Assembly: GCA_025455065.1 (NCBI GenBank) | Contig: JALONG010000063.1 | Coordinates: 1-33,102, forward strand | Direction: 5' to 3' | DNA length: 33,102 nucleotides | Source: Candidatus Kapaibacterium sp. | GTDB taxonomy: Bacteria; Bacteroidota; Ignavibacteria; Kapaibacteriales; UBA4661 | In this document: piece by piece, positions 22,886-31,204 of the stretch | Numbering within the stretch: the first letter of the stretch is position 1 | Layout: each line of letters opens with the position of its first letter | Notes under the pieces: model-generated | What the model saw: only the letters and a program-made list of their open reading frames with translations | Database searches by the model: none | Told to the model about the DNA's origin: nothing | Position numbers and translations under genes: made by a program

Positions 22886-24205
22886 TTACACACAAAAAGC
22901 GTCAAAATCACGCCAAAAATCAGGATAGGATTTCGCAACGCACTCAGGATGTTCAATTTCCACACCCTGTACGCGCAGCCCTGCCAAGGCAAAACTCATC
23001 GCCATGCGGTGGTCGTCAAACGTGGGAATTGATGCGCCGTGCAGCACTGAAGCAGGCTCAACAACAAGAGCAGAGCCTTCGGTAAATGCTTTGCCGCCTA
23101 AACGCTCAATATTTTCTATCACCGCTTGAACGCGGTCAGACTCTTTGTAGCGCAGATGCTCAATGTTGCGAAAAATGGAGCGTCCTTCGGCGAATAAAGC
23201 GACAACGGCGACGGTGGGAACAATATCGGGGCAGGAGTTCATATCCCAATCAACACCGCGTAAATGCTTACTTCCCGTCAGATGCAATCCCGCCTCGCTC
23301 CACGAAACTTTTGCGCCAAAATGCTCCAAAATCGGCACAATAGCGCGGTCGCCTTGCGGTGAATCCTGCGTGAGATTCGGAATGTGCATTGTTCCGCCTG
23401 TTATCGTGGCTGCTGCAAGCGGATAGGAGGCAGAGGAATAATCGCCTTCGACGGTGTATTCCGGCATGATGTAGGGCTGCTTTCCTTGAACAATATACCC
23501 CGTCACTGCGCCATTCTCCTGCATTTCTTCTGCGTGAACCCCTGCTTTTGCCATTTGCGCAATCGTCATGTCAGAATAGGATTTCGACGCGATTTCGCTC
23601 ACAATCTCAATTCTCAAACCGTCATCCAAAAGTGGCGCAATCAGAAGCAGCGCGGAGAGAAATTGCGAGGACTTCGACGCATCCACCCGTACAGTTTTTT
23701 GACCGCCGTAATTCGGAATTGGTTTGACGATACGAATCGGCAGAAAGCCGTTTGTGTGCGTGAGGTTTGCCCCAAGCGCCGCAAGTGGCTCAATAAGTTC
23801 CTGCATCGGGCGCTGCCTCATGCGTTCAGAACCGTCAATTTCCAAAAATCGCGTTTCGCCGATAGGCTGCACGGCAGCAACGGCGGTCAAAAGCCGCGCA
23901 CTGGTGCCGGAGTGGTGAATGTTGATGCTCACTGATTCACTCGAAACCGCCCGTTTGCCCGTAAATTCTACAAGCGTGATAGAATCTGCTGTTTCTTCTA
24001 CCCGCACGGGATACCCCATTTGGCGCAGCGCTTCCAGCGTCAGCGTCGTGTCGTCACTGCGAAGCGGGTGGCGGACAATGGCGCTTTTGCCCGATTGATG
24101 TGCTGCAAAGGCAGCAATAATCAGCGCTCTGTGGGTGAGGCTTTTGGAAGTCGGCACCGATAGTGTGCCTTTGACGGATGCAGGCGTGATGAGGCGTTTG
24201 TTCAT
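22886..24205 (-). CDS. aroA: EPSP synthase
   Basis: AroA transfers the enolpyruvyl group of PEP to shikimate 3-phosphate, the sixth shikimate-pathway step. The 439-residue product is full length. Motifs are 'VPTSKSLTHRALI' (binding Lys and Ser), 'HHSGTSARLLTAV' (PEP-binding loop, with His-Ser where many enzymes have Asn-Ala or Asn-Ser), 'DGSERMRQRPM', 'VEGDYSSASYPLAA', 'LRYKESDR' and 'DDHRMAMSFALAG'. It starts 62 bases after the aroB-aroD-aroE fusion stop, on the same strand, so the two are probably cotranscribed. No Shine-Dalgarno sequence is visible. Confidence 0.95.
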   Translation of the reverse strand: MNKRLITPASVKGTLSVPTSKSLTHRALIIAAFAAHQSGKSAIVRHPLRSDDTTLTLEALRQMGYPVRVEETADSITLVEFTGKRAVSSESVSINIHHSGTSARLLTAVAAVQPIGETRFLEIDGSERMRQRPMQELIEPLAALGANLTHTNGFLPIRIVKPIPNYGGQKTVRVDASKSSQFLSALLLIAPLLDDGLRIEIVSEIASKSYSDMTIAQMAKAGVHAEEMQENGAVTGYIVQGKQPYIMPEYTVEGDYSSASYPLAAATITGGTMHIPNLTQDSPQGDRAIVPILEHFGAKVSWSEAGLHLTGSKHLRGVDWDMNSCPDIVPTVAVVALFAEGRSIFRNIEHLRYKESDRVQAVIENIERLGGKAFTEGSALVVEPASVLHGASIPTFDDHRMAMSFALAGLRVQGVEIEHPECVAKSYPDFWRDFDAFCV

Positions 24206-24267: not shown

Positions 24268-26868
24268 TTATGACACAATCCCCTTCCACACTTCCCGAAC
24301 CTGCTCCAAGGGCAGTTCTACGCCCGTAAAAAGCCTGAATTGATGCGCTGCTTGGCGGATAAACATTTCGTCGCCTGTAATAGTGGTGCAGCCTTCGTAT
24401 TCGGCGGTTTGGATGTACTTCGTGCGAACAGGATTATAGACCACATCCAGCACGACCATTCCGCGCCGGAAAAGCTCGCTTCCGTAGGGCATTTCGTCCA
24501 CGTGCGGAGTCATGCCGACGGATGTGGTCTGAATAATGCCGCCAATATCCAGCATTTCAAAATCGGATTCGGTAACGGCTTTGACCTTAAATTTCGTCGT
24601 AATTGCCCCGACACGCGCACGGTTACGCCCGATGACGTACATCCGCTTTACACCCATGCGGTTCAGCGCTGCAATCGCGCTTTGTGTTGTCGCGCCTGTA
24701 CCGATAAGCAATACGCCGTAATCAAGTTCCTGTTGGTGTGGTCGGAGGCAGTCCTCTAATGCCAGAACATCCGTATTAAAGCCCTTCCAGCGTCCTTCAA
24801 TCGGAACGGCGGTATTGCACACGCCGGACTGCTTGGCTTCATCAGAAATATCGTCCAAAAGGCGGAAAATGGCTTCTTTGTGCGGTATGGTAACGCTTAC
24901 ACCGGAAAGGCTGTGGCGCCAATCCGCCCAAAACTGCTTCGCTTCGGGTGCAGGAAAATTCAGGTACATAAGAGAGGTGCTGTTTGGAAGCAGCTTGTAG
25001 AGCGCGTTGTGAAGATATTTCCCTTTGCTCTGCCGCGTCGGATAGCCCAAAAGCCCATACAATGCGGTTTGTGGCGTTTTTTCATGGAGAAAATACACAT
25101 TTTTCGCCTCGCCAAGCGTGATTTGCCCCGATGCCGTCGGTGCTTCGCCATCCAATGCGAGGTAAGTCCACGCATTGCCGCGTACAGCGCCGATAATCCG
25201 CGACGGTTCGCCAAATTCGCCCATAGCATGGATGACCACATTCAAAAAGCGCGATTTTGCATATTCAATTAAATTTGTCGCCACAAGCGCATCACTGGGG
25301 CTGTCGGCGGTAAAAACGAGTTTGTAAAGGTGCGCAAAAATTCCCGTCATATCGTCCAGCGTGTCGCGTAATTCCTCGAAAGAAGCGCCTGCGGTCAAAA
25401 TATGCCGTGAAAGAATATACTTCGTGTTTAAGCCGATAGGTAATTGCGGAATAACCTCGTGTGCAATGGCGTGTTCCACATCTACCCAATCAATTCCGGC
25501 AAGCATCGCATCGTTGTAAATCGCAATGCGTTCATCATCCTCGCCGATGAAATAACCACCTTCATCGCGGGAGCGGCACGTAACGATAAGCGGCGTTGTG
25601 GGAACGTGCTGACGGATAAACTCCCAATCAATAAGCCTGATTTCATCGCCCGGAATCATATCCACGCGAATTTCGACCAAATCCGCACCTTGAGCGCGTT
25701 GCACCATCGGCACAATATCGCTGGCGTATTGCGGCATTACGCAAACGCACATTTGTGGTGTTGTTGCACCGACAATACTTGCATCCAGAGCCTTTTCCAG
25801 TGTAGTGCGTTCCACCGACTGACCAAGGACATATTCTTGTGGGGATTTCATCAACACAAAGCGTGGAGCGCCTTCGCGGGATTTTTTATCCATAGCGATA
25901 GCGTGCCAAACGGCATCACGCGAAAAACGGTGCGAATAGTCATTTTTGAGATGAAAGCGTTCCAAAAGACTGTCAAAGCGTTGCACATATTCGTCGGGGT
26001 AGCCAAGCATATCGGCGGAAAGTCGCATGGCAACACGCATCCCGGAGGCAATCGCAAAACCGTGTGCGATTTGATAGTTACTCAATAACTCAAAAGCGTG
26101 TCCTGATGTGTGTCCGAAATTCAGCACCGCCCGCACACCGGATTCTTTCTCGTCTTGAGCGACAATATCCATTTTGAGTTGCGCCGAACGGGCAATAACA
26201 TGGCTCAAAACCTCACGTTTGCGCTGTTTGATGAGCATTTCGTAAGTTTCAAGATATGTCCAGAGCTCCGCATCAAGCGTGGCTGCATACTTAATCACTT
26301 CCGCCATACCGTTGTAAAACTCAAGGTCGGGCAGGGTTTCAAGCGTTGCAATGTCGGCAAAAATGGCTTCGGGTTGATAAAACGCGCCCAAAAGATTTTT
26401 CCCCTCAGCGTGATTGATACCTGTTTTTCCGCCGATGCAACTGTCCACCTGCGCCAAGAGCGTCGTTGGCAAGTGAATAAGCGGCACACCGCGATGAAAC
26501 GTCGCTGCGATGTAACCCGCTAAATCACCCACAACACCACCGCCGACGGCGAGAATTACGGTGTCGCGCCCTAATTTGGCTTCAAACAAGCGGTCTTCGA
26601 TATTGTCTTTGACTTCGCGGGATTTGCTGGCTTCGCCGGCAGGAAAAGTAATAATTCCCGCAAAGCGCGGATGCGTCCCGAAGAGCGCTTCCATGCGGTT
26701 TTGGTAGTGTTCTTGAACGTTGGAATCGGTGATTATTGCCAAATTATGCTTGGGAAAGCGCTCCAGAACAAATTCTGCGGCATCTTGCCAGACATCGGCT
26801 CCGCAAATGTAAGGAATGGTGCGCTCTTGGGCGGGTAAGGTCAGCGAAAGAGTTTTGGTGAAGGGCAT
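24268..26868 (-). CDS. Fused AroB-AroD-AroE (three shikimate enzymes)
   Basis: One 866-residue frame codes for three consecutive enzymes. Residues 1 to about 365 are 3-dehydroquinate synthase ('VGGGVVGDLAGY', 'DSCIGGKTGIN', E190, K193, 'FGHTSGHAFE'). Residues about 372-585 are type I 3-dehydroquinate dehydratase, with E399, H489, Schiff-base K516, R557 and Q582 visible. Residues about 600-866 are shikimate dehydrogenase, with catalytic K664 in 'TIPHKE', N685 and D700 in 'GFNTD' and a Gly-rich nucleotide loop 'LIGTGATTQSA'. The ATG at 26868 lies four bases after the stop of the preceding small gene. A TTG 12 codons upstream is less likely. The order B-D-E resembles fungal AROM without the AroA and shikimate kinase modules. 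The AroE shikimate-binding motif is divergent. Confidence 0.93.
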   Translation of the reverse strand: MPFTKTLSLTLPAQERTIPYICGADVWQDAAEFVLERFPKHNLAIITDSNVQEHYQNRMEALFGTHPRFAGIITFPAGEASKSREVKDNIEDRLFEAKLGRDTVILAVGGGVVGDLAGYIAATFHRGVPLIHLPTTLLAQVDSCIGGKTGINHAEGKNLLGAFYQPEAIFADIATLETLPDLEFYNGMAEVIKYAATLDAELWTYLETYEMLIKQRKREVLSHVIARSAQLKMDIVAQDEKESGVRAVLNFGHTSGHAFELLSNYQIAHGFAIASGMRVAMRLSADMLGYPDEYVQRFDSLLERFHLKNDYSHRFSRDAVWHAIAMDKKSREGAPRFVLMKSPQEYVLGQSVERTTLEKALDASIVGATTPQMCVCVMPQYASDIVPMVQRAQGADLVEIRVDMIPGDEIRLIDWEFIRQHVPTTPLIVTCRSRDEGGYFIGEDDERIAIYNDAMLAGIDWVDVEHAIAHEVIPQLPIGLNTKYILSRHILTAGASFEELRDTLDDMTGIFAHLYKLVFTADSPSDALVATNLIEYAKSRFLNVVIHAMGEFGEPSRIIGAVRGNAWTYLALDGEAPTASGQITLGEAKNVYFLHEKTPQTALYGLLGYPTRQSKGKYLHNALYKLLPNSTSLMYLNFPAPEAKQFWADWRHSLSGVSVTIPHKEAIFRLLDDISDEAKQSGVCNTAVPIEGRWKGFNTDVLALEDCLRPHQQELDYGVLLIGTGATTQSAIAALNRMGVKRMYVIGRNRARVGAITTKFKVKAVTESDFEMLDIGGIIQTTSVGMTPHVDEMPYGSELFRRGMVVLDVVYNPVRTKYIQTAEYEGCTTITGDEMFIRQAAHQFRLFTGVELPLEQVREVWKGIVS

Positions 26869-26872
26869 AAAA

Positions 26873-27193
26873 TCAGGGCTTGTGTGGGGAAGGGGGTTCA
26901 ACAATCATATAAACGCGAAAGTATTGATTTGTAAGGCTGCAAACAACAAGAAATTCTTCCGGTGGCATATTTTCGTCGCGCCGAAAGAACACGGGAATCG
27001 TATGGGTTATATCTCTCCGTGGGTCAGAACTTGCTTGATTATATGCTTCAATAATTAGCACGATAACCAGCATCAAACCTTGTTCATACAGTTCTACAAT
27101 TTTGTGATACGCACTTGCATCAAGAATAACATGAGTTTCTCGTTTGGCAAACGAATTATACATCCGAAAAATTTCAAGCATCGAAGAGGTCAT
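26873..27193 (-). CDS. Small protein of unknown function, second of an overlapping pair
   Basis: The 106-residue product is not recognised. It has a hydrophobic stretch 'GLMLVIVLIIEAYNQ' and an alternation of strands and helices, such as 'EEFLVVCSLTNQYFRVYMIV', that suits a small alpha-beta domain. Its start overlaps the 3' end of the preceding 69-codon gene by 20 bases, and its stop lies four bases before the aroB-aroD-aroE start, so it is very likely cotranscribed and translationally coupled with the shikimate genes. It could be an accessory or regulatory protein, or a passenger pair of toxin-antitoxin size, but nothing specific supports either. Confidence 0.6.
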   Translation of the reverse strand: MTSSMLEIFRMYNSFAKRETHVILDASAYHKIVELYEQGLMLVIVLIIEAYNQASSDPRRDITHTIPVFFRRDENMPPEEFLVVCSLTNQYFRVYMIVEPPSPHKP

Positions 27194-27383: not shown

Positions 27384-27454
27384 AAACCAAGAAGAAAAAT
27401 ACCAAAAGAAGGAAAAATTTGCATCTGCCAAAAAAAATCCTTACATTTTCAGCC

Positions 27455-27469
27455 GTACAAGTTTTGTAC
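27455..27469. promoter_or_regulatory. Inverted repeat between the divergent aromatic arms
   Basis: GTACAA and TTGTAC form a perfect inverted repeat around a three-base GTT spacer. It lies between the small-gene/aroBDE arm and the leader/pheA arm, 72 bases from the - arm start and about 125 bases before the leader peptide. It is placed where a shared operator would be. No regulator is identified. Confidence 0.35.
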
Positions 27470-27581
27470 TCACATTCTGTACGCTCAAATATACACAAAG
27501 TTTTTTCAGATGAAAGCCACAATCAACATATTCCGCAAAAAAGCCGATGCTGCTTTGACAAAAGCACCGAAGAGCGCTGTA

Positions 27582-27665
27582 ATGCAGTCGTCTTACGGTT
27601 TCTTTTTTTATGGCTTTTTTGTCTTTTACTTTTACGGTAAAAGCGCGGGACTGTTGATGCCATAA
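27582..27665 (+). CDS. Phe/Tyr-rich leader peptide
   Basis: This 27-codon frame (ATG 27582, TAA 27663-27665) carries seven Phe and four Tyr codons among the 14 codons from 27594 to 27635, in the order Y-G-F-F-F-Y-G-F-F-V-F-Y-F-Y. Its composition and position are those of an amino acid biosynthetic leader peptide such as enterobacterial PheL. The frame is open to an ATG at 27510, giving a 51-residue alternative. GAAGAG at 27569-27574 is a weak ribosome site for the shorter form. It lies upstream of the fused prephenate dehydratase-DAHP synthase-chorismate mutase gene. Ribosome stalling at these codons should report shortage of charged tRNA-Phe or tRNA-Tyr. Confidence 0.8.
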   Translation: MQSSYGFFFYGFFVFYFYGKSAGLLMP

Positions 27666-27726
27666 ATCGAAACACACGATAAAATCTCAACATCCCGCGC
27701 TCCAAAAGAGTTGCGGGATTTTTTTT
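27594..27726 (+). promoter_or_regulatory. Transcription attenuator of the pheA-aroF operon
   Basis: Three alternative structures can be drawn. The first folds over the Phe/Tyr codons: TTTATGGC (27607-27614) with GCCATAAA (27659-27666), and inside it CTTTTAC (27623-27629) with GTAAAAG (27637-27643). The antiterminator pairs 27642-27657 (AGCGCGGGA, one bulged C, TGTTGA) with 27687-27701 over 15 pairs. The terminator pairs 27692-27702 with 27708-27719 and ends in T8. A ribosome finishing at the TAA at 27663-27665 would cover the antiterminator strand and let the terminator form. One stalled at the Phe/Tyr codons would leave it free. The layout matches the classical attenuation mechanism. It is inferred from sequence only. 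Confidence 0.8.
27692..27726 (+). terminator. Attenuator terminator upstream of pheA-aroF
   Basis: ATCCCGC (27692-27698) pairs with GCGGGAT (27713-27719), extended inward by a G-U pair and CTC/GAG around a CAAAA loop, then T8 at 27719-27726. It lies 27 bases after the leader stop and about 160 bases before the fused gene. Confidence 0.88.
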
Positions 27727-27737
27727 GTATCAAAAGA

Positions 27738-27860
27738 CAACCAAGCAACCAAGTAACGAAGCACCAAGTAACGAAGCACCAAGTAACGAAGCACCAAGTA
27801 ACGAAGCACCAAGTAACCAAGCACCAAGCAACCAAGTAACGAAGTAACTAATCAACCAAA
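27738..27860 (+). repeat. 15-bp tandem repeat in the pheA-aroF 5' UTR
   Basis: The unit ACCAAGTAACGAAGC occurs four times perfectly in tandem (27748-27762, 27763-27777, 27778-27792, 27793-27807), then one copy with a single change and further degenerate copies to about 27860. The sequence continues as an A/C-rich tract to the start codon at 27889. The tract contains in-phase TAA codons and is almost free of self-complementarity, so the mRNA here should be unstructured. Confidence 0.9.
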
Positions 27861-27888
27861 AACTACAAACCACAAACCAAAAACTACC

Positions 27889-29904
27889 ATGGCAACACAC
27901 AAAATCGCTATACAAGGCGTTGCAGGGGCATTTCACGACATTGCAGCGCGTCGGTATTTCGGTGCAACCAAAGGCGACACCGTTGAAATCGTCGAGTGCG
28001 AGACTTTCGACCAAGTTTGCGAAGCCGTAACGAATAACACCGCAACAGCCGGCATGATGGCAATCGAAAACACGATTGCAGGCAGCATTCTTCCCAACTA
28101 CGCGCTTCTGCAAACCTACAATTTATCGGTCATCGGGGAAACATACGTCCGTATTCAGCACAATCTTTTGGCGCTTCCGGGGCAGACCATTCCCGACATC
28201 CACACTGTGCAGGCGCATCCTATGGCGCTCCTCCAATGCCGCGACTTTTTTGCGAAGTACCCGCATATTCACGTGGAAGAGGCGTTTGATACGGCGGGGA
28301 TTGCAAAGAAGATTCGCAACGAGAATTTAAGCGGTCTTGCGGCGATTGCAGGATATTTAGCGGCGGATTTGTACAAATTGGATACGCTTGCAGAGGGCTT
28401 GGAGTCGAATAAGCAGAATTTCACGCGCTTTCTCGCCATTTCCCGCACGGCAAACCACCTTTCCCGCGAGTACAATAAAGCATCTATCGGCTTTCGCGTA
28501 TCGCACACATCGGGAAGCCTCGCCGATGCGCTTTCTATCTTCAAGCGCAACCACATCAACCTCACGAAAATTCAGTCTATTCCCGTAATTGGTGTGCCGT
28601 ATGAATACACGATTCATGTGGATATGCTCTGGGAAGATGTCAGTGATTTCGAGCAGGCGCTCCGCGAATTTAAGCCGGAGGCGCTTGAACTCAAGGTCTA
28701 TGGGGTGTACAAGGAAGGCGAAAAAAATATTGACCTCACAACAAAACACACCATTTCGGTCACGGAACAAGACCCTGAAGACCCGCAAGAAGTCTTGGCA
28801 ACAGCCAAAAAACACGCCGACGGCGAGATGGTCGTTCCCGAATGGCAAAAGTGGATAAAACCTGCACAAAAAACGCCGAAAGAGTATTTGGTGATTTCCG
28901 GTCCGTGCAGTGCCGAAACCGAAGAACAAGTGCTGGAAACCGCACGACGCATAGCCGCAACGGGTAAAGCCAGCGTGTACCGCGCCGGAATTTGGAAACC
29001 TCGCACAAGAGCAGGCGGATTCGAGGGACACGGCATAAAAGCGCTTCCTTGGCTGCAAAAAGCGAAAGAGGAAACAGGCTTGATGATGGCGGTGGAAGTA
29101 GCAACGGCGCAGCACGTGGAGGATTGTTTGAAGCACGGCATTGATATTCTCTGGATTGGCGCTCGCACAACGGGCAACCCTTTTTCGGTGCAGGAAATCG
29201 CTGATGCAGCGCGTGGAACGGACGTTGGGATGATGGTGAAAAACCCGATTAGCCCCGATTTGGAACTCTGGATTGGCGCAATGGAGCGCGTGTACAGGGT
29301 CGGTATTAACAAACTCATCGGTATTCATCGCGGTTTTTCGACGCATGAAAAAAGCAAATTCCGCAATAATCCGACGTGGGCAATCCCGATGCAATTCCGT
29401 GAGCGCCTCCCAAATATGCCGCTTATCAACGACCCAAGCCACATCACCGGCAAACGGGCGCTCTTGGCGGAAGTGGCGCAAAAGGCGCTTGATATTGGCA
29501 TGAACGGCTTTATCATCGAATCACACATTGACCCCGATAACGCATGGACAGACGCTTCGCAGCAAGTTACGCCGGAGGCTCTGCGCGATATGCTGGATGC
29601 GCTTGTGTGGCAGCCCGCTTACGGTGCAGTTACGCACGACGATACGTCAAAACTCGACACGCTCCGCTCGGCGATAGACCGCTTGGATGCTGAGTTTATG
29701 GAACTTCTGGCAGCCAGAATGAACATTGTCCGCGAAATTGGCGAATACAAAAAGCACAACAAAATGGACGTTCTTCAGCCGGCACGCTGGGAAGATATTA
29801 TGCAAAAGCGCCTCGCGCAAGGTGGGAAGCTGGGTTTGGGCGATACGTTTGTGAAAGACCTTTTTGCGGATATTCACAAAGAATCGGTTTCGATTCAGCA
29901 GTAA
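27889..29904 (+). CDS. Fused prephenate dehydratase-DAHP synthase-chorismate mutase
   Basis: This 671-residue protein joins three activities. Residues 1 to about 185 are prephenate dehydratase ('MAIENTIAGSI', 'AHPMALLQCRDFF', catalytic 'NFTRF' with T179). Residues about 198-278 are an ACT domain with the motif Gln-Ser-Ile-Pro (229-232) where Phe-binding dehydratases usually have Glu-Ser-Arg-Pro. A charged linker follows. Residues about 332-575 are DAHP synthase, class I beta/KDO8P-like ('ISGPCSAE', 'GIWKPRTRAG', 'IGARTTGNPF', 'GIHRGFST', 'NDPSHITGKR'). Residues about 585-671 are an AroQ chorismate mutase ('LDTLRSAIDRLDAEF', 'EIGEYKKHN'). It commits carbon into the pathway and makes prephenate and phenylpyruvate. 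An attenuator lies upstream and tyrA downstream. Confidence 0.94.
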   Translation: MATHKIAIQGVAGAFHDIAARRYFGATKGDTVEIVECETFDQVCEAVTNNTATAGMMAIENTIAGSILPNYALLQTYNLSVIGETYVRIQHNLLALPGQTIPDIHTVQAHPMALLQCRDFFAKYPHIHVEEAFDTAGIAKKIRNENLSGLAAIAGYLAADLYKLDTLAEGLESNKQNFTRFLAISRTANHLSREYNKASIGFRVSHTSGSLADALSIFKRNHINLTKIQSIPVIGVPYEYTIHVDMLWEDVSDFEQALREFKPEALELKVYGVYKEGEKNIDLTTKHTISVTEQDPEDPQEVLATAKKHADGEMVVPEWQKWIKPAQKTPKEYLVISGPCSAETEEQVLETARRIAATGKASVYRAGIWKPRTRAGGFEGHGIKALPWLQKAKEETGLMMAVEVATAQHVEDCLKHGIDILWIGARTTGNPFSVQEIADAARGTDVGMMVKNPISPDLELWIGAMERVYRVGINKLIGIHRGFSTHEKSKFRNNPTWAIPMQFRERLPNMPLINDPSHITGKRALLAEVAQKALDIGMNGFIIESHIDPDNAWTDASQQVTPEALRDMLDALVWQPAYGAVTHDDTSKLDTLRSAIDRLDAEFMELLAARMNIVREIGEYKKHNKMDVLQPARWEDIMQKRLAQGGKLGLGDTFVKDLFADIHKESVSIQQ

Positions 29905-29993: not shown

Positions 29994-30428
29994 ATGACCA
30001 CATCTACCATCGAAACACTTCTTCCTTCGCTCTACGAAAGTATTTGCTTCAGAAAGGGTGAGAACCCAACATTTGAGAGGCTTCGGGAGCATTTTTTGCC
30101 GGAAGCACTGCTCATTAACAACAATAATCCCTCAGCGCCTACGGTAATGACACTTGAAGGCTTTATCCGAACGGTGCAAAACGCGATTTCTTCGGGACAG
30201 GTAGTGGAATTTCACGAGCGGGAAATTGAACGGACGATTAAGATTGTCGGCAATATCGCGCACGTCTTCAGCAAGTACGAAGCGAGGTTTGACGCGGTTG
30301 CACCCGAGCCGTTCAGCGTCGGCACAAATTCGATTCAACTTATTCGCACAGAAGGAAAAAACGGCTCAGAATGGCATATTTCCTCAATGGCGTGGAATGA
30401 CCTCCACGAAAAAAAACATGACCAATGA
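29994..30428 (+). CDS. NTF2/SnoaL-like small protein
   Basis: The 144-residue product begins with a helix pair ('IETLLPSLYESICFRKGEN', then 'FERLREHFLPEALLINN') and continues with strands 'VVEFHEREIERTIKIVGNI', 'AHVFSKYEARFD' and 'SIQLIRTEGKNGSEWHISS', ending in 'MAWNDLHEKK'. This order is typical of the cone-shaped NTF2-like (SnoaL/DUF4440) fold. The catalytic role is unknown and many members are enzymes or ligand binders. It lies between the fused pheA-aroF gene and tyrA and overlaps the tyrA start by four bases (ATGA), so it is translationally coupled to tyrosine synthesis. GAAAGG lies upstream of its ATG. Confidence 0.7.
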   Translation: MTTSTIETLLPSLYESICFRKGENPTFERLREHFLPEALLINNNNPSAPTVMTLEGFIRTVQNAISSGQVVEFHEREIERTIKIVGNIAHVFSKYEARFDAVAPEPFSVGTNSIQLIRTEGKNGSEWHISSMAWNDLHEKKHDQ

Positions 30429-31204
30429 CTAAAAACCAACAACCAACAACTAGAAACCAACAAACCATCGGTATCATCGGCTACGGACGATTCGGAAAGC
30501 TGCTTGCCAGATCGCTTTCGCGGGATTTTGCAATTCGAGTTTTTGAACCCGGATTAGAACAACAAACGCTGGGAGCAAGCATTGATGCGGTCTCATTGCG
30601 TGATGCTGTGTTGGCGGATTACGTATTTGTTTGTGTGCCGATTGTTGCGTTTGAATCTGCAATGCAAGTAATAGAGCCACTTCTACCGGAAGGTACGCCT
30701 GTGCTGGACGTGTGTTCGGTGAAGGTGCATCCGACTGTAATGATGCGAAAATATCTTCGTGCGAAATCACCGATACTGCCCACCCATCCGATGTTTGGAC
30801 CCGTTTCCGCGAAAGACGGTTGGACGAATTTACCATTTGTGCTTTGCCCCGAACCGGACGCAACTCCGCAAGAAATGGCACTGTTGCGCTTTTGGGAAGA
30901 GTACATCATACAAAAGCAAGGCGCACGGGCAATTACGATGAGTGCCGACGAACACGACCGCATCACGGCATATAATTTGTGTTTGACGCAGCTTTTGGGG
31001 CGAGTGTTGGGGAATATCGGTATTCAGTCTTCACCGATTGACGCGCAAAGTTTCAAGCATCTGCTTTCAATGAAAGAAATGTCGTATAGCGATTCGATGG
31101 AATTGCTTATTGGTATGCATCGCTTTAATCCTTATTCCAATGAGATGCGAAGCCGTCTCAGGGCAGAATTGCAGAGCATTGAAACTATTATTGCCGAGTA
31201 TTAG
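30425..31204 (+). CDS. tyrA: Prephenate/arogenate dehydrogenase
   Basis: TyrA oxidatively decarboxylates prephenate to hydroxyphenylpyruvate, or arogenate to tyrosine. Which substrate is used here cannot be told. The 259-residue product has a Rossmann fold with 'IGIIGYGRFGKLLA' (GxGxxG at 19-24). 'LPTHPMFGP' carries the conserved catalytic-region His, and 'MSADEHDRITAYNLCLTQ' is the C-terminal helical signature. It is shorter than E. coli TyrA because it has no chorismate mutase domain, which the upstream fusion supplies. Residues 2-14 are Gln/Asn/Thr-rich and low complexity. The start overlaps the preceding gene as ATGA. Confidence 0.92.
   Translation: MTKNQQPTTRNQQTIGIIGYGRFGKLLARSLSRDFAIRVFEPGLEQQTLGASIDAVSLRDAVLADYVFVCVPIVAFESAMQVIEPLLPEGTPVLDVCSVKVHPTVMMRKYLRAKSPILPTHPMFGPVSAKDGWTNLPFVLCPEPDATPQEMALLRFWEEYIIQKQGARAITMSADEHDRITAYNLCLTQLLGRVLGNIGIQSSPIDAQSFKHLLSMKEMSYSDSMELLIGMHRFNPYSNEMRSRLRAELQSIETIIAEY

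Follow-up and report, generated by a model that had tools for sequence, protein, structure and literature searches.

The window, by which we mean the whole stretch of 33,102 nucleotides that was analysed, is contig C65 of the 5.6 Mb genome of an uncultured, Kapaibacteria-like bacterium. It carries a gene for a fused enzyme of 671 amino acids, in which the ACT-like part scores below the Pfam cut-off for ACT (Table 1). Behind it follow a reading frame of 144 amino acids, with no match in Pfam or NCBIfam, and a tyrA-like gene, for whose product of 259 amino acids the prephenate dehydrogenase models score below their own cut-offs. Judging from their position, both are probably in one operon with the fusion gene. 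The functions that the first-pass annotation had placed here, DAHP synthase, chorismate mutase, prephenate dehydratase and tyrA, were all recovered as Pfam matches (PF00793, PF01817, PF00800 and PF02153). Upstream of the fusion gene there is a short frame rich in Phe and Tyr codons with a putative terminator behind it, and the fusion gene is in all likelihood the one that this putative leader switch controls.

Table 1. Positions in the window of the predicted leader, its candidate promoter and the genes behind it
Feature	Position	Strand	Remarks
Putative -33 box, TTTG	27418..27421	+	Bacteroidota promoter consensus
Putative -7 box, TACATTTT	27442..27449	+	
Predicted leader peptide ORF, 51 codons and stop	27510..27665	+	Peptide MKATINIFRKKADAALTKAPKSAVMQSSYGFFFYGFFVFYFYGKSAGLLMP; N-terminus kept in L031 and L032
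Control codons, YGFFFYGFFVFYFY	27594..27635	+	7 Phe and 4 Tyr in 14 codons
Region 2, antiterminator strand	27642..27657	+	Within the leader ORF; 15 bp with region 3
Region 3, common to antiterminator and terminator	27687..27701	+	
Predicted terminator hairpin (regions 3:4)	27692..27719	+	-15.3 kcal/mol; homologous helix covaries in 70 sequences
T8 run of the putative intrinsic terminator	27719..27726	+	
Fused prephenate dehydratase - ACT-like - DAHP synthase - chorismate mutase	27889..29904	+	671 aa; Pfam PF00800, PF00793, PF01817
ORF between the fusion gene and the tyrA-like gene	29994..30428	+	144 aa
tyrA-like prephenate dehydrogenase	30425..31204	+	259 aa; PF02153

The surroundings of the operon also hold genes of aromatic synthesis. 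The nearest recognisable gene upstream of the leader lies on the other strand, a divergent frame of 878 amino acids (24268-26904) in which 3-dehydroquinate synthase, type I dehydroquinase and shikimate dehydrogenase are fused, and aroA (22886-24205) is found behind it. The untranslated spacer between the terminator and the enzyme gene consists in large part of a tandem repeat (27738-27859), with about seven copies of the 15-nt unit AACGAAGCACCAAGT. The order of the domains in such aromatic enzyme fusions is not always the same: it is prephenate dehydratase, DAHP synthase, chorismate mutase in the window, and chorismate mutase, prephenate dehydratase, DAHP synthase in L180:1030-3222, from a genome of another family in the same class. 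At the related locus L032 (G003:C34) trpE is situated about 1.3 kb downstream of a fusion with the order of the window, on the same strand.

The predicted leader frame is rich in codons for the end products of the Phe/Tyr pathway genes downstream, which is one feature of an attenuator. The count of seven Phe and four Tyr codons given in the first-pass annotation proved correct, and the run is the only stop-free stretch of 14 codons in the window, in all six frames, that reaches 11. When positions 27401-27900 were shuffled 2000 times with the dinucleotides preserved, the best stretch contained eight such codons, and none of the 2000 shuffles reached 11. The limits of the frame had to be corrected. 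It had been thought to begin at 27582, but the ATG at 27510 is the most likely start, because the N-terminus MK..INIF.KKA is conserved in L031 and L032; the in-frame ATG at 27582 is a possible alternative. The stop codon was also said to adjoin the antiterminator strand. It lies at 27663-27665, and the strand sits within the leader frame.

The pairing between regions 2 and 3 is as first described, 15 bp in competition with the terminator, and it is predicted to be the stronger of the two (-24.6 as compared to -15.3 kcal/mol). It contains one bulged C, and none of 100 shuffles gave an equal duplex (z -6.2). The terminator ending in T8 was likewise found where it had been placed, so that a predicted intrinsic terminator (27692-27726) stands between the leader frame and the first gene, as in an attenuator. 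Its stem carries a one-base bulge, and a terminator scan for ungapped stems found no terminator at the leader site, with 0.9 expected in shuffles. The RNA of 27500-27730 as a whole is more stable than all of 200 shuffles (z -4.5).

A third fold, pairing 27607-27614 with 27659-27666 over the control codons, had also been proposed. The 8 bp are present in the window (-8.5 kcal/mol), but on inspection the fold is absent in L031, and we rejected it as a general part of the element, as region 2 has no general pairing with up to 110 nt upstream. Over 70 loci the pairing of region 2 with the upstream leader had a mean z of -0.25, and in only 5/70 were at most 5/100 shuffles as good, so the region 1:2 hairpin of a trp-type, four-strand attenuator was not found. 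As far as hairpins involving region 2 are concerned, the design looks three-strand and not like the textbook four-strand one.

Computing both alternative folds for different ribosome positions showed that the predicted structure switches between them. With the RNA free from 27617 or from 27641, corresponding to a ribosome on 27603-27605 or on 27627-27629, the antiterminator forms, and with the RNA free from 27677, the ribosome being at the stop codon, the terminator alone forms. Thus the antiterminator excludes the terminator and would be left free by a stalled ribosome, a further feature of an attenuator, with a spacing in the window of 7 nt where 12 nt is usual. Once the ribosome stands on the last Tyr codon (RNA free from 27647), folding favours the terminator, because region 2 begins just 7 nt behind that codon. 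One or two control codons at the end of the run may therefore be idle in the window, and perhaps nine of the eleven would be able to act. When no ribosome is placed on the RNA, the two folds differ little in energy and the best one depends on the stretch, being the antiterminator for 27500-27730 and the terminator for 27510-27727.

The promoter is less distinct. A candidate for the Bacteroidota promoter consensus, TTTG and TAnnTTTG, lies upstream of the leader frame, and TTTG-N20-TAnnTTT occurs with the identical spacing of 20 nt in L031 and L032; in that form it is absent from L033, L034 and L035. The bare TTTG/TAnnTTT pattern is found three times in the window against 2.5 expected, which is chance frequency. 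A generic sigma-70 scan gave a single site, within the element and at chance rate, which we rejected.

Like the folding, the comparison with relatives proposed in the first-pass annotation came out in its favour: the codon run and both stems are retained in the upstream regions, and changes in the stems are compensatory. The nearest relatives were sampled by taking the 80 loci that matched the enzyme best in our genome collection, which are those closest to the query and not a random draw; they come from Kapaibacteria, Prevotella, Parabacteroides, other Bacteroidales, Flavobacteriaceae and a few others. A leader was counted when a frame no longer than 70 codons, with six or more Phe/Tyr in 12, lay upstream of the match and was accompanied by a terminator no more than 160 nt away. 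Such a frame and terminator were seen in 69/80 loci, as compared to 1/80 on the opposite strand. Two loci (L036 and L041) end short of the leader site, which makes it 69 of 78 testable loci; the nine testable loci in this sample without a leader by these thresholds include the flavobacterial L062, L101 and L102. The same search with 25 other pairs of residues gave 0-24 of 80, and all five pairs found in at least 17 loci contain Phe or Tyr. Within the genus of the window the leader is present in L031, L033 and L034 and weakened in L032, where the run has just five Phe/Tyr in 12, and within the family it is present in L035. In L033 and L034 the leader precedes the enzyme by about 0.5 and about 1.4 kb, and other ORFs lie in the interval.

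More even samples, which covered about 1.5-3 kb upstream of the prephenate dehydratase gene and left out the second such places of G147 and G186, give another picture of the distribution. In the class of the window, outside its own genome, we scanned 52 loci, one for each genome with a prephenate dehydratase match, at a looser threshold of five Phe, Tyr or Trp in 12. Runs were reported for 5/52, two of them more than 1 kb from the gene and judged spurious, so that a run stands beside the gene in 3/52. The antiterminator was equalled by 4 of 200 shuffles in L175, by 7 in L194 and by 78 in L188, which is not better than shuffled. In the sample drawn evenly from the phylum outside this class, a leader was found in 13/61 loci and on the reverse strand in 0/61. 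The leaders belong to 5/17 families, with 8/8 loci in one family and 0/18 in the largest. The element is patchy across the phylum, and most relatives in the evenly drawn samples are without a leader.

The competing helices are also supported in the relatives. In 59/70 loci no more than 5 of 100 shuffles matched the duplex of the leader with the 5' arm of the terminator, that is, the antiterminator; the mean z was -4.0. We compared two alignments, A1 with 50/70 of the sequences and A2 with all 70; the 20 sequences absent from A1 include nine of the eleven loci with a weak antiterminator, which favoured A1. The result stands in A2 with a slightly weaker antiterminator, with 85.9% standard pairs as compared to 88.2%. 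In A2, 76 cells of the antiterminator helix are changed on both sides, against a mean of 26.7 in shuffled controls and 2-18 in slid controls. The terminator helix has 96.9% standard pairs and 101 such cells, against 27.7 in shuffled and 5-19 in slid controls, and for both helices none of 500 shuffles equalled either measure. Counting pairs instead of cells, the antiterminator has six pairs with double changes (5.4 in shuffles) and 15 pair types (14.8), neither above the shuffles, and the terminator has eight pairs (6.0; 2/500 shuffles) and 22 pair types (18.7; 10/500). The strength of the antiterminator signal lies in the cell counts, which are inflated by related sequences, and in the slid controls, which keep that relatedness. 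One arm thus covaries with two different partners, as is required of a switch.

The geometry points in the same direction. From the last Phe or Tyr codon to the first paired base of region 2 the median distance over the 70 loci is 12 nt, and it lies within 9-14 nt in 65/70 loci and 20/23 sequence clusters, as compared to 6.9% of 2100 shuffles. The exceptions are L035 (2 nt), L031 and the window (7 nt), L037 (15 nt) and L045 (16 nt). The end of the stop codon, measured from the same codon, wanders between 6 and 54 nt. A near-constant distance from the codons to region 2 together with a wandering stop is to be expected of a switch that works by ribosome stalling. About 11-12 nt separate the codon in the A site of a ribosome from its leading edge, so in most loci the antiterminator would begin at the front end of a ribosome that has stalled on the last control codon. 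A weak point is that in L078, L080 and L081 the stop codon is more than 20 nt beyond region 2, and a ribosome at the stop would leave region 2 uncovered; in these loci the passage of the moving ribosome would then have to suffice.

The element is very probably a ribosome-mediated transcription attenuator of the aromatic amino acid operon, working by way of a leader peptide. The parts of such an attenuator had been recognised in their order from the beginning, and for the leader, the control codons, the mutually exclusive helices and the terminator this reading of the sequence is supported by the folding and the covariation. RNA polymerase would start near 27450, presumably trailed by a ribosome that enters the leader frame. 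With charged tRNA-Phe or tRNA-Tyr in short supply, this ribosome would stall within 27594-27635, leaving region 2 free to capture region 3; no terminator would then form, and the fused enzyme gene and tyrA would be transcribed. If both tRNAs are plentiful, the ribosome should reach the stop codon at 27663-27665 and cover region 2, region 3 would fold into the terminator (27692-27719 with T8), and transcription would stop. Termination itself, and the response to each of the amino acids, are predictions made from the sequence.

The composition of the control stretch suggests what would be sensed. Phe and Tyr codons occur together in the control run, as they do in the AroR leader: in 67/69 leaders the stretch of 15 residues holds at least two Phe and at least two Tyr, with means of 4.5 Phe and 3.9 Tyr, and the leader of the window may sense both. 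It is also possible, though on the whole doubtful, that the attenuator answers in practice to Phe alone and that the Tyr codons are filler or weak sensors; this is a sub-case of the attenuator reading, and our confidence in the one overlaps with that in the other. In the Corynebacterium glutamicum AroR leader the codons are Phe-Tyr-Phe, and yet it is reportedly Phe limitation, not Tyr limitation, that gives a response in the expression of the operon (PMC11802643), and the leader of L175, from the same class as the window, has a run of Phe only with one Tyr behind it. Against sensing of Phe alone stand the 67 leaders with both residues, and the last four codons of the window's own run, which are F-Y-F-Y.

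Trp is found in the control stretch of all 23 leaders from Flavobacteriaceae (e.g. NWFYFFF and NFWYFYF), as compared to 4/46 of the others. These 23 lie within L083-L110, and their assignment to the family rests on the names in the records and on the usual placement of the genera; L098 was grouped with Bacteroidales. In family f37 of the phylum sample Trp is common and not universal, being present in 5/8 leaders. Trp beside the Phe/Tyr run suggests that the flavobacterial leaders sense three amino acids, and it would fit if each of the aromatic products had a part in controlling DAHP synthase.

Three readings without attenuation by a leader peptide have to be weighed against this evidence. The frame could encode a functional, hydrophobic small protein with the terminator simply its own, and the aromatic-rich peptide and its N-terminus MK..INIF.KKA, kept in three genomes, would agree with that. 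It is the aromatic run that is kept across the phylum, not a common sequence, and the RNA behind the run stays complementary to the terminator arm though the sequences vary, which makes a small protein very unlikely. The element could also be a ligand-binding riboswitch or a protein-bound terminator, with the codon run as an incidental feature, and a competing antiterminator and terminator would be in keeping with a riboswitch as well. This we consider highly improbable: neither the window nor the 11 loci tested gave an Rfam match at a family's cut-off, A2 shows little conservation in the sequence that separates the two switch helices, and the near-constant distance is counted from the codons. 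That the run is a chance product of T-rich sequence before a plain terminator would fit the T-richness of the region and the empty ungapped-stem scan, but with no shuffle of 2000 reaching the run and the arrangement in 69/80 loci against 1/80 on the other strand, and with the near-constant spacing and the covariation of both helices speaking against it as well, it can practically be dismissed.

Other candidate leaders were observed in the same genome. A frame rich in Ile, Leu and Val, MLISRSYILLVIFVVIVIT, with a terminator precedes ilvD (G000:C89:4786-4845; L182:787-846). Its antiterminator is not equalled by any of 200 shuffles (z -3.8), and the energy folds retained the terminator in all three ribosome states tried. 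The presence of this leader, terminator and antiterminator counts in favour of the attenuator reading of the window. A AACCAAAAACC-rich stretch upstream of ilvD in L182 resembles the tandem-repeat spacer of the window. A Trp-rich frame, MNNAYTHSWLWWWHFSHSRWAA, with a terminator precedes trpE (G000:C81:45130-45198; L184:1631-1699), and there is a similar one in G002; a search that reached about 5 kb upstream gave none in G005 and G006. The antiterminators of these two trpE leaders are not above shuffles, 46 and 33 of 200 being as good, and the trpE leader locus L113 has no Rfam match. No leaders were found in six his and six leu loci, L183 having none on the strand of the gene, and a leu candidate in L147 and an ilv candidate in L130 were judged spurious. 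No pheS leader was seen in nine of the ten pheS places found. The 11 other runs of six Phe/Tyr codons in the genome, near chance when compared to six for the reversed pattern, include none with a short Phe/Tyr frame and a terminator on the strand scanned.

At the leader site, neither the window nor 11 loci of relatives gave an Rfam match that reached the cut-off of its family, the tRNA match of the window being elsewhere. The Phe_leader family RF01859 scores 17.5 bits in the window against a gathering score of 55 (E 2.7), so the element is not a member. The leader peptide of Escherichia coli pheL has Phe codons and is not known to have Tyr codons. The pheL-pheA attenuator of enterobacteria likewise consists of a Phe-rich leader and a terminator before a gene for chorismate mutase/prephenate dehydratase (PMC11802643), and the leader of the window differs from it in its mixed Phe and Tyr codons and in that no 1:2 pairing was detected. 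The AroR leader of the C. glutamicum aroF operon is similar in having mixed Phe/Tyr codons before a DAHP synthase operon; it has just Phe-Tyr-Phe, belongs to another phylum, and Tyr is reportedly without effect (PMC11802643). The uORFC-13-1 motif of Acholeplasma aroF, known from 24 sequences, is from another phylum too and is likened here by its description: an upstream ORF containing one or more Phe codons stands beside a terminator in front of DAHP synthase (PMC8632094).

The first-pass annotation singled out a leader attenuator in an FCB-type genome because such attenuation is best known from proteobacteria; as a kind, it is not new in this phylum. The Bacteroid-trp RNA (RF01692) is a trp leader, and neither the window nor any of 20 loci tested gave a match to it. 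It is listed as a cis-regulatory RNA of Bacteroidetes (PMC2864571). For Flavobacterium psychrophilum one study reports clues of leader peptides upstream of amino acid operons, and an unexplained 5' element upstream of pheA, also found in other genera of Flavobacteriaceae and without Rfam hits (PMC9723704). This pheA element shares its phylum and gene with the leader of the window and is probably the same element, and the section that reports it gives no codons, no mechanism for pheA and no distribution beyond Flavobacteriaceae (PMC9723704). In Bacteroides thetaiotaomicron long 5' UTRs with small ORFs were found reminiscent of attenuation leader peptides; the example in the available part of the text is BT_4401, and no aromatic operon is named there (PMC7366714). 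An account of amino acid attenuators suggested a possible gammaproteobacterial origin with very few transfers (PMC3766115), and the distribution found here would speak against that view for aromatic attenuators.

The kind of element is thus known, and what appears new is the predicted mixed-aromatic, three-strand form with near-fixed spacing across Bacteroidota, which is partly anticipated in Flavobacteriaceae. Lopatovskaya 2010 and Vitreschak 2004 are likely precursors, which may already predict such elements in Bacteroidetes. The passages of the literature consulted give no account of the Phe/Tyr codons of the leader, its competing folds or its spacing. Somewhat tentatively, and at a little less than even confidence, we propose a Bacteroidota-wide but patchy class of aromatic attenuators absent from Rfam, functioning as an OR gate for Phe or Tyr, and in many flavobacteria Trp too, in which three strands and a ruler of 12 nt match the leading edge of the stalled ribosome.

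Ribosome-mediated attenuation needs a ribosome close behind the RNA polymerase. The tightness of the coupling between the two is disputed outside proteobacteria, and Bacteroidota are considered to depend little on Shine-Dalgarno initiation. A recurrent switch geometry that is measured from the last Phe/Tyr codon points indirectly to coupling in Bacteroidota, and the reading as a phylum-wide OR gate would, if true, imply that transcription and translation are tightly coupled there. The leaders found in Parabacteroides, Prevotella and marine flavobacteria could serve as ready reporters of coupling, and the leader offers a test of how one element sums two or three amino acids. In a large phylum, it would also assign a form of regulation to the first step of aromatic synthesis.
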